Shown one piece after another: positions 45,163-47,035 of a stretch of DNA of 64,000 nucleotides. How positions within the stretch are numbered: the first letter of the stretch is position 1; the number at the start of each line of letters is the position of its first letter. The translations under genes and the position numbers were made by a program. The stretch comes from Duganella sp. Leaf126 (GTDB lineage Bacteria; Pseudomonadota; Gammaproteobacteria; Burkholderiales; Burkholderiaceae_D), in contig NZ_LMNW01000034.1 in assembly GCF_001423125.1 (NCBI RefSeq), positions 138,444 through 202,443 of the forward strand, given 5' to 3'. The notes beneath the pieces were generated by a model. That model was not told the origin of the DNA and searched no databases. It worked only from the letters and a program-made list of their open reading frames with translations.

Positions 45163-45585
45163 ATGATGCAAGACGATATCTACAACCTGTTTCTCACGAA
45201 CGAGCAGGGCTGGAGCGTATATGGCACGTTGCGCCTGCGCCTGGTCCAGCCGCTCACCGATGGCGGCAGTGTCCGCCTGCCGCCGCTGCTGGGCGAGGCG
45301 CTCGTGCCCGCCACCCAGGAGCTCACGCCGATCCCGGTCGAAGGTGCGATCTCGGTACCGCTGTTGCTGCCGTTTCGCGAGGTGCCGTTGCGCGGCATTG
45401 CTTTTGCCACGCCGATCGGCCTGTTTTCGTTTGCCCTCGACAGCGGCAACGCGCGCCCGTCCGCCGCCATCCAGCTATTCCCGTTCGGTAGTCCCGACCT
45501 GGGCGGCTTCCTGATCTGGAGCACCGGCCACTTCGGCGAACTGGTGTTCAGCACGCTGGCGCGGCAATTGCCGCGCGCATTGTGA
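45163..45585 (+). CDS. Paralog cluster protein 1, unknown family
   Basis: A 140-residue protein that I do not recognise, the first of four tandem paralogs. It has the cluster signature at the N terminus (DDIYNLFLTNEQGWSVYGTL) and C terminus (FGELVFSTLARQLP), with the central strand pattern EGAISVPLLLPFREVPLRGIAF. There is no signal peptide, no membrane helix and almost no Lys or Cys; it looks beta-rich and cytoplasmic. CCGGAGG lies 7 bases before the first ATG (two ATGs in a row). It is the most divergent of the four in its C-terminal third, lacking the FNQI motif. Confidence 0.8.
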   Translation: MMQDDIYNLFLTNEQGWSVYGTLRLRLVQPLTDGGSVRLPPLLGEALVPATQELTPIPVEGAISVPLLLPFREVPLRGIAFATPIGLFSFALDSGNARPSAAIQLFPFGSPDLGGFLIWSTGHFGELVFSTLARQLPRAL

Positions 45586-45630
45586 CGCGTCGCTGCGGGC
45601 CTTGCCCTCAACTTTTTGAAAGGAACGATC

Positions 45631-46074
45631 ATGGATGAGTTGATCTACAACCTGCTGCTCAAATCGCGTGGCGGCCTGGTGCTGTTCGGCGTGCTGCGCT
45701 ACCGCCTGACCGGCATCGAAGTCGACCAGGTGCGCGACGCCAGTGTCTTCAGCACGCCCGCCTTGCGCCAGAGCCATGCCGGACAGCGAACCCAGCAGCA
45801 GCTGGACAATATTTTCGCGCTGGTACTGCGCGCCCAGGGCTCCATCACGATACCGGCACTGACCGGCTCGCGCGCCGTGCCGGTCGAGGACGTGGCGTTC
45901 TTTATCCAGATGGGGCCGCCGATAGTGACCCGGCTGTTCAGCGCCGACAGCAGCGTGCTGCTCTGCTTCAACCAGATCAACAACCAGCAGATCGGCGGCG
46001 GTCTGCTGTGGGGGCCGACCAATACCAGTTTCGGCTTGCTGGGCCGGCGCCAGATGTTGCCTGCCGCGGCGTGA
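45631..46074 (+). CDS. Paralog cluster protein 2, unknown family
   Basis: A 147-residue protein of the same unrecognised family: MDELIYNLLLKSRGGLVLFG at the start, a variable middle of about 45 residues rich in Gln and Ser, then GSITIPALTGSRAVPVEDVAF and the CFNQINNQQIGGGLLW stretch. The end is QMLP. AAAGGAA lies 6 bases before the ATG; an in-frame ATG at 45616 would put that site inside the gene and is rejected. It follows gene 1 by 45 bp. Confidence 0.8.
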   Translation: MDELIYNLLLKSRGGLVLFGVLRYRLTGIEVDQVRDASVFSTPALRQSHAGQRTQQQLDNIFALVLRAQGSITIPALTGSRAVPVEDVAFFIQMGPPIVTRLFSADSSVLLCFNQINNQQIGGGLLWGPTNTSFGLLGRRQMLPAAA

Positions 46075-46101
46075 TCGGTATGACCTGATACCAAGGAGAC
46101 C

Positions 46102-46524
46102 ATGATGAACGACTTTATCTACAATTTGTTGCTGACCGGCGAGCAGGGGCTGACCCTGTTCGGCACCTTGCGCTTTCGCTTCACCGACCCGCTGACGGCG
46201 GTGCCCGATGGCGGCGTGCCGTCGCTGCTGGCAGCCCACCAGCAGCTGGGCGTGGTCACGGCCGTGCTGCTGCCGCTCGATGGTTCGATTGCCATCCCGC
46301 TGCTGACCGGTTTCGGCCGGGTGCCGCTGCAAGGCTTCCTGATCGCCACGGCTGCCGGACCGATCACCACCATTCTCGGCAGCACCGACAACGCACGGCC
46401 GGCATTCGTGCAGTTCAACCAGATCAGCGGCAACCAGATCGCCGGCGGCGTGCAGTGGCGCCCTGCCGATCCGGCCGAGCTGGTGTTCAGCCTGCTCGGG
46501 ACGCAGCTGCGGCTGCCGATCTGA
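46102..46524 (+). CDS. Paralog cluster protein 3, unknown family
   Basis: A 140-residue protein with the clearest family signature: NDFIYNLLLTGEQGLTLFGT, DGSIAIPLLTGFGRVPLQGF, QFNQISGNQIAGGVQW and ELVFSLLGTQLRLP. CCAAGGAGACC precedes the start, and the same 11 bases precede gene 4, so the translation leader was duplicated with the gene. The first two codons are both Met. It follows gene 2 by 27 bp. Confidence 0.8.
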   Translation: MMNDFIYNLLLTGEQGLTLFGTLRFRFTDPLTAVPDGGVPSLLAAHQQLGVVTAVLLPLDGSIAIPLLTGFGRVPLQGFLIATAAGPITTILGSTDNARPAFVQFNQISGNQIAGGVQWRPADPAELVFSLLGTQLRLPI

Positions 46525-46555
46525 CTCCCGCATCCCGCTATCCAAGGAGACCGTC

Positions 46556-47035
46556 ATGAATGAGCTCATCTACAGCCTGCTGCTCAAAACCGCCCAGGGC
46601 CTGACCCTGTTCGGCAGCTTGCGCTTCACCATCGACACCACGCAGCCGGCTACTCCCGGCCCGGCCATCGACGCTGCCGCAGCAGGGCGTGGCGATGCCG
46701 GCGCGCTGCTGGCGCAACTGCAGCAACAGCAACAGCAACAGCAGCAACAGCAGCCGATCGAGATCGAACTGTTCGCCTACCGCATCGACGGGGCGGTGAC
46801 GATACCGTTCGTGACCGGTGCCGGTCCGGTGCCGCTGACCGGCCTGGCGCTGTTCACCTTCCTCGGACCACCGGCCACCTTCTTTACCAGCAGCACCGAC
46901 CCGGCGCGCAACCTGTTCCTGCAATTTAATGGCATTTCCAACGACAACATCACAGGCGGCCTGGTGTGGCGCGCGGGCGAACCCGGCGAGTTGATCTTCA
47001 GCGTGCTCGGCACGCAGTTGCAGCTGCCTGCATGA
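46556..47035 (+). CDS. Paralog cluster protein 4 with polyglutamine tract
   Basis: A 159-residue paralog: NELIYSLLLKTAQGLTLFGS at the start and DGAVTIPFVTGAGPVPLTGLA, QFNGISNDNITGGLVW, ELIFSVLGTQLQLP at the end. Its variable middle carries a run of eleven Gln encoded by mixed CAG/CAA (46721-46753), after an Ala/Gly-rich stretch. The leader CCAAGGAGACC is shared with gene 3. It is the last gene of the cluster, followed 33 bp later by a strong terminator. Confidence 0.8.
   Translation: MNELIYSLLLKTAQGLTLFGSLRFTIDTTQPATPGPAIDAAAAGRGDAGALLAQLQQQQQQQQQQQPIEIELFAYRIDGAVTIPFVTGAGPVPLTGLALFTFLGPPATFFTSSTDPARNLFLQFNGISNDNITGGLVWRAGEPGELIFSVLGTQLQLPA
46721..46753 (+). repeat. CAG/CAA trinucleotide run (11 Gln)
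   Basis: Eleven consecutive Gln codons (CAG CAA CAG CAA CAG CAA CAG CAG CAA CAG CAG) lie in the variable middle of paralog 4. Slippage here would change protein length without changing the frame. Confidence 0.9.

Follow-up and report, generated by a model that had tools for sequence, protein, structure and literature searches.

Four tandem paralogs of an undescribed family of predicted small β-barrel proteins in Duganella

The tandem array

The DNA analysed here, referred to throughout as the window, is a stretch of 64,000 nt from Duganella sp. Leaf126 (RefSeq assembly GCF_001423125.1, contig NZ_LMNW01000034.1, positions 138,444 to 202,443 of the forward strand). At 45163-47035 it carries a tandem array of four genes, placed between a cyanophycinase gene and a major facilitator superfamily (MFS) gene, which encode paralogous proteins of 140, 147, 140 and 159 residues (Table 1). 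The array had been noted in an earlier sequence-only reading, whose observation of four tandem paralogs is confirmed here and whose interpretation is partly supported. Open reading frames were found at the lengths given in that reading, each preceded by its own ribosome-binding site. For gene 2 the start codon was taken to be the ATG at 45631, which follows AAGGA, whereas the mechanical open reading frame starts farther upstream, at the TTG at 45616. The genes are separated by gaps of 45, 27 and 31 bases. Genes 3 and 4 have the leader CCAAGGAGACC in common, as had been described, and three of the four genes have a 109-nt repeat that takes in the leader together with the N-terminus.

A search of the own genome with paralog 3 recovered the other three paralogs with E-values of 1.4e-21, 6.5e-20 and 9.0e-18, and 21 alignment columns are invariant. 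The motifs first described as shared across the genes were confirmed, with one correction given below. Because of these E-values, the invariant columns, the 109-nt repeat and the substitution ratios of the orthologs (below), the likeness of the paralogs is not ascribed to chance. The tail motif EL.FS.LG.QL.LP was found in strict form in genes 3 and 4; gene 2 is without EL and gene 1 reads ELVFSTLARQLPRA. The run of 11 glutamines in paralog 4 was also recovered and is not common to its two orthologs.

The terminator said to close the set corresponds to an inverted repeat with arms at 47067-47083 and 47094-47110, located so that it could also serve the convergent MFS gene. It was not reported by the terminator scanner, whose loop limit is 8 nt against a loop of 10 nt here. 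A simple scan of 44900-47250 returned two terminator-like stems (45118-45136, just below the two-block element described below, and 45792-45805 in gene 2), roughly as many as chance alone would give. Positions 43000-49000 gave no Rfam match at gathering thresholds.

Table 1. Coordinates of the array, its parts and its flanking genes in the window
Feature	Position	Strand	Basis or remark
Cyanophycinase-like gene, left flank, conserved anchor	43730..44953	+	TIGR02069 E 6.5e-43; synteny
Two-block promoter-like element (TCGA..N..ATCA, then GGCTGG.TA.GCTG)	45069..45116	+	Alignment of 17 sites; scan; cross-clade model
Paralog 1, group g1, 140 residues	45163..45585	+	Orthologs G106_5443, G848_8142; AlphaFold2 model
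Linker of paralog 1, strands 2-3, low-confidence loop	45247..45321	+	Residues 31-50, pLDDT about 51-52; alignment
Paralog 2, group g2, 147 residues	45631..46074	+	Orthologs G106_5898, G848_8594
Linker of paralog 2	45712..45816	+	Alignment
Paralog 3, group g3, 140 residues	46102..46524	+	Orthologs G106_6517, G848_10995; AlphaFold2 model
Linker of paralog 3	46186..46260	+	Residues 31-50, pLDDT about 49-55; alignment
Paralog 4, group g4, 159 residues	46556..47035	+	Orthologs G106_6978, G848_11455
Linker of paralog 4, includes Gln run	46637..46768	+	Alignment
11 Gln codons, CAG/CAA mixed	46721..46753	+	Three Gln at the same place in both orthologs
Terminator-like inverted repeat, 17-nt arms, 10-nt loop, A/T runs	47067..47110	.	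Between array and convergent MFS gene
MFS transporter gene, right flank, conserved anchor	47189..48538	-	PF07690 E 7.9e-17; synteny

Family membership and distribution

Genome searches used profiles of 4, 13 and 15 members and covered family, genus, class and phylum samples, which may overlap. The family comprises 34 members of 132-159 residues in 10 genomes (denoted by G numbers; excised loci by L numbers). In the own genome only the four window genes belong to it; two further matches (C12 and C33:61624; E 0.1 and 1.0) were weak, at chance level, and were dropped. The GTDB family sample held real members in 4 of 294 genomes, all of the window's genus. Among 74 genus genomes eight carried members: eight copies in G848, four each in G000, G106, G067, G832 and G836, three in G837 and one in G133. 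Matches in G260, listed in both the family and the genus search, were partial (E 0.0059 and 0.0032), lay within an open frame of 1299 residues and were not counted. The two named carriers are Duganella phyllosphaerae T54 (L021) and Duganella sp. 1411 (L022). The class sample of 274 genomes yielded one member each in G397 and G514, draft genomes of one remote family (85% and 82% complete) that are the only representatives of their family and order in that sample; together with G133 they hold the single divergent relatives. Within the phylum sample of 249 the own genome alone matched. Homologous tandem clusters, whose occurrence in related genomes the sequence-only reading had proposed as a check, stand at this site in 7 of the 74 same-genus genomes (own included), with 3-8 copies.

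No characterised sequence family was matched. The best Pfam matches of the 34 members were at chance level (VTT domain, E 0.015; NCU-G1, 0.034; DUF3124, 0.037; androgen receptor, 0.064), as was the best NCBIfam match (E 0.036). PHROGs gave none at E 0.1 and one at 0.33. PDB sequences gave none below E 0.1, the nearest being HIV protease (0.11) and SMURF2/HUWE1 (0.13-0.39). PADLOC, searched with the four window proteins, gave no match at E ≤ 1. In tblastn searches nothing was returned at E ≤ 0.01 from plasmids, for which paralog 3 and two of the single-copy members served as queries, or from phages, queried with paralog 3 and the G133 member; scans of viral contigs with A1 and the G397 member gave no relative. 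Literature searches under Duganella, avidin-like or tandem-paralog, and self-assembly themes found no printed account, a weak negative for a nameless family. That this is a real, expanded and undescribed family, as first suggested, is well supported; it is centred on one genus.

Carriage by a phage was considered for the G133 gene, which is 100% identical to a gene on an IMG/VR contig (L126) and lies near an integrase gene. Since a tRNA-Leu (L040 11077-11163) stands between gene and integrase, this single copy is most likely on the host side, and phage cargo was rejected. The predicted provirus of IMG/VR (L040 9869-12364 / L126) extends beyond the tRNA-Leu at the integrase end and includes a gene that is probably the host's. 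One of the remote single-copy members (L038 3412-4512) lies between a gene for a FIST-domain protein (PF08495/PF10442) and, by eye, a Lon-like protease gene.

Genomic site

In all seven array genomes the genes lie between the cyanophycinase gene and an MFS-cyoA-cyoB block, accompanied by glyoxalase, PPK2, GH92 and ApbA genes in changing combinations. When cyanophycinase genes are ranked by E-value against the window's, the array genomes supply the top seven (75-100% identity), and the next two are 73-74% identical. Ten genomes were fetched from the 67 of the genus without the array at this site, and none had a family match there at E ≤ 0.1. Four such sites were read, and other genes occupy the gap. 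The simplest reading is that the array was gained once, by the common ancestor of these seven genomes, and then passed down with duplication and loss; it may also have been lost elsewhere.

In G106 and G848 the array has two glyoxalase genes and a PPK2 gene beside it (L021 4503-5367, 7484-8401). The window site (44953-45163, 47035-47189) is without these three genes, so the window lineage seems to have lost them here. In the four array-less genomes whose sites were read (L111, L113, L119 and L120) the interval between the cyanophycinase or GH92 gene and the PPK2 gene is itself a variable site, holding (by eye) a gluconate-kinase-like, MFS, porin, trypsin-like, aquaporin-like or further glyoxalase-like gene. 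Farther off in the window, at 39922-40482, an open reading frame resembles by eye a TspO/MBR protein.

Paralog history and selection

In a midpoint-rooted tree of the 34 members, every window gene formed a group with a single G106 gene and a single G848 gene (support 100/99, 100/98, 93/91 and 100/99). The four additional copies of G848 are diverged and were placed between groups 2 and 3. A second clade (G067, G832, G836 and G837) has groups of its own, and one-to-one pairing between the clades is not supported. G837_11325 grouped with the single-copy members of G133, G397 and G514 (99/96), where long branches meet. All four groups are retained in G000, G106 and G848 (12 of 12 genes), which argues for non-redundant roles of the four paralogs.

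The ratio of non-synonymous to synonymous substitution rates (dN/dS) was 0.10-0.58 in 30 of 30 ortholog pairs, and a coding signal is present. Pooled over these pairs, which share sequences, it was 0.39 for the linker (794 codons) and 0.25 for the core (3486 codons); by group it ranged from 0.19 to 0.81 for the linker and from 0.11 to 0.45 for the core. The orthologous groups are under purifying selection, and copy number has changed. Amplification for gene dosage, or duplicates that drift with no role of their own, would fit the turnover seen in G848 and the higher dN/dS of h3 (0.54 and 0.58 for two pairs), and is distinctly improbable in view of the low core dN/dS in every group, the absence of internal stops from all 32 family matches of the genus and the retention of all four groups in three species. 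The one TAA counted in the G397 member is its regular stop codon.

The linkers between strands 2 and 3 had been described as wholly different and hypervariable. Between paralogs they do differ strongly, with 2-7 of 24-25 aligned positions identical; between orthologs the linkers are largely kept, at 40-92% identity with up to 12 gap positions, and hypervariability was an overstatement. Many linkers contain, by eye, a short G-D/E-x-x-A-L stretch (such as GDvsALL), at which both structural models described below place a three-residue helical turn. On this evidence the linker evolves faster than the core and is not diversifying.

These values also bear on the suggestion that the proteins expose antigen-like, diversifying loops at the cell surface. 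Loop length and composition do differ strongly between paralogs, and one surface barrel, the meningococcal factor H binding protein, turns up in the structural comparisons (Z up to 8.5 and 9.4). It scores below avidins and the best designed barrels, however; orthologs have largely the same loops, dN/dS stays below 1 for each pair and each linker group, and no Sec-type export signal or lipobox is visible by eye in the 34 N-termini. The suggestion is accordingly given very little credence.

A shared upstream element

A two-block element, roughly TCGATC.GATCA followed by GGCTGG.TAAGCTG, lies at most 260 nt upstream of 17 of the 34 family genes, with block starts 31 nt (15 sites) or 32 nt (2 sites) apart. 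Calculated from six sites, one per orthologous group, and with no small-sample correction, information content was 1.47 and 1.57 bits per column in the blocks, 0.74 in the spacer and 0.70-0.71 in the flanks. The copy before paralog 1 is the only forward one above 16 bits in the window. For a model built from 11 sites of the other clade, the highest-scoring plus-strand position anywhere in the window was 45069 (27.8 bits, against a shuffled maximum of 10.6), and its best match in L021 and L071 was again a known site; a model built from the five sites of the first clade found a known site as best match in all four other-clade loci. In the window and 19 loci every match of at least 30 bits precedes a family gene, the same 17 sites having trained that model.

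Reverse-strand look-alikes occur at or near family-gene leaders (window 45138-45186; L071 10431, 23.8 bits), with scores close to the weakest true sites. At the corresponding place none was listed in the G106 locus, and the G848 locus had one of 8.1 bits only.

Judged from the sequence, the element is a likely promoter or operator of the four-gene unit. If TAAGCT (TACGCT in the window) were the -10 hexamer, the first block would be centred near -40, a usual place for an activator site.

Predicted fold

AlphaFold2 models were produced for paralog 1 (model 1, 13 sequences) and paralog 3 (model 2, 34 sequences), with predicted local distance difference test (pLDDT) values of 81.2 and 84.6 and predicted template modelling (pTM) scores of 0.74 and 0.79. 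In both, eight strands follow in order to form a meander β-barrel, and the linker is of low confidence. As a prediction, this fold is well supported. The best VIA-align Z-scores were 12.2 and 12.5 for models 1 and 2, and the matches listed include designed barrels (up to Z 12.5), an annelid haemoglobin barrel, Cap15, PagL and avidins; DUF1842 was among those listed with model 2 only. Foldseek E-values were weak, with a single match under 0.001 in either PDB search, and the viral structure library gave no match at E ≤ 0.001. As modelled, the match is one of architecture, not of family.

Residues were assigned to the inner or outer face from strand alternation, not coordinates. By this assignment inward positions are hydrophobic or glycine, and at outward positions 6, 10, 20, 118 and 132 a hydrophobic residue is present in 76-100% of sequences. 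Such an outer face would fit co-assembly of the paralogs as a mixed oligomer, shell or filament with one subunit type per gene, as would the co-directional genes with short gaps behind a single forward upstream element and the paralog groups retained side by side. Copy number, however, varies from 3 to 8, the paralog sets of the two clades lack supported one-to-one pairing, the face assignment has the basis just given, and the structural analogue Q63NT7 is described as probably monomeric, higher-order assembly not having been observed (PMC10994174). Co-assembly is a possible but rather unlikely reading. A more specific form, a new heteromeric assembly drawing 3-8 barrel subunits per species from one co-regulated array, with composition shifting by subunit gain and loss, the barrel scaffold retained and the loops specialised, is rather more doubtful still.

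Proposed explanation

The most economical reading is a set of co-expressed intracellular binding barrels, each specialised in its lid loop and outer face; it is put forward tentatively, as a possibility short of an even chance, and its functional half draws on analogy. The four genes would form one transcription unit, switched on at the shared two-block element and ended at the terminator shared with the MFS gene. The products would be lineage-specific, small, soluble and probably intracellular eight-stranded meander β-barrels of avidin/calycin-like architecture, without a recognisable sequence family. The barrel, with its hydrophobic core and kinking glycines, would act as a conserved scaffold, and the flexible strand 2-3 linker at one barrel end together with paralog-specific outer faces may fit every paralog for a different small ligand or protein partner.

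Several observations weigh against this explanation. Only the resemblance in fold would speak for a binding role, and the nearest solved analogue is said to have no channel (PMC10994174). A buried ligand site is not indicated, since the inferred inner face is without an invariant polar residue; the conserved positions look structural, and the mostly hydrophobic outward positions would fit an oligomer. None of the neighbours (cyanophycinase, GH92, glyoxalases, PPK2, MFS, ApbA) points to a ligand, and the flanking genes also occur, in varying combinations, in the 10 sampled relatives without the array. Linker groups h1 and h3 have dN/dS of 0.81 and 0.76, near neutral. As regards the element, the block limits were set on the alignment of all 17 sites, so that the cross-clade test is not fully independent; the look-alike on the reverse strand at window 45186 reached 25.8 against 27.8 bits in that test, and no sigma-70 promoter was found by the simple scan of 44900-47250.

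With the array comes a protein family that is not catalogued and whose fold is clearly predicted. Its natural series of 1, 3, 4 and 8 copies bears on why bacteria multiply small barrels in one operon, and the shared promoter-like element offers a way to learn at what times the genes are used and which others are regulated with them.

Comparison with known barrels

DUF1842 (PF08896; PDB 8t0b/8t1m/8t1n) was suspected at first from a sequence pattern. Its members are likewise small eight-stranded antiparallel β-barrels encoded in tandem pairs, and 8t1m and 8t0b match model 2 at Z 10.9 and 10.8, with a root-mean-square deviation (rmsd) of 3.5 over 104-105 residues; neither is in the best 50 matches listed for model 1. 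The barrel present in the models is a common architecture, and this match is tied with avidins and designed barrels. There is no sequence or profile similarity, and the loci differ. The curated PF08896 profile (cut-off 23 bits) matched 0 of 34 members at E ≤ 0.1 and 0 of 15 at E ≤ 1. Comparison by hhalign with the few DUF1842 sequences used gave probabilities of 0.1-0.6% with 4, 7 or 9 sequences and 0.2% with 5, with no collinear alignment. On sequence the array proteins do not qualify as members, and descent from DUF1842 is not supported by profile comparison. Four of nine collected DUF1842 proteins have a long C-terminal tail that the array proteins are without; the latter end soon after strand 8, and no DUF1843 domain was matched in Pfam.

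The own genome had no DUF1842 match at E ≤ 0.01, a search in which the control genomes also had none. Matches were found at E ≤ 0.01 in 7 of 116 family genomes (5 over the cut-off) and at E ≤ 0.001 in 3 of 349 order genomes (2 over the cut-off). In three genomes, two belonging to the window's genus and one to a different genus of the family, DUF1842-like genes adjoin, by eye, an MsrA-like gene (L077 1420-1815, L078 1492-1875, L076 1462-2076).

A question like that of the multiplied barrels was reportedly raised for DUF1843 proteins by Beeby et al. in 2009. A later report describes Q63NT7 (DUF1842/DUF1843) as proposed to self-assemble since the C-terminal DUF1843 domain recurs in operon paralogs, and leaves the question open, assembly not having been seen (PMC10994174). 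Quorum sensing induces DUF1842/DUF1843 genes in Chromobacterium subtsugae (PMC12114271). In Burkholderia thailandensis such genes are listed as up-regulated when cells pass into stationary phase (PMC12322963), and one DUF1842 gene was up-regulated with iron in C. violaceum (PMC4216352). One report places DUF1842 beside a radical SAM/SPASM peptide maturase gene; no such gene was seen at the array sites examined. That the array encodes highly diverged DUF1842 relatives with the same role as operon-paired barrels would suit the fold match, the tandem genes and this regulation, and is improbable given the profile results.

The barrel domain of the Cap15 cyclic-nucleotide receptor (7n34) matches at Z 10.6 and 11.2, the latter with rmsd 2.8 over 97 residues, and could suggest nucleotide sensing or phage defence in the Cap15 manner. 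The array proteins differ in having no transmembrane helix apparent by eye, no defence or cyclase-like gene among the flanking genes examined and no PADLOC match, and the array is kept at one site across the clade; such a role is scarcely credible. Calycin-like barrels (Ycf58/CpcS-type 3bdr, nitrobindin, lipocalins) gave the best Foldseek E-values, 9.9e-4 and 5.2e-4 to 3bdr, with a TM-score of only 0.41, rmsd 9-11 and 8-10% identity. Bacterial avidins are usually exported and are 6-12% identical to the array proteins, and no avidin family is among the Pfam matches of the 34 members at E ≤ 0.1. In architecture, however, rhizavidin, hoefavidin, wilavidin and others are alike in being small eight-stranded meander barrels, with chains of 105-134 residues and Z-scores of 9.8-11.5 with both models.

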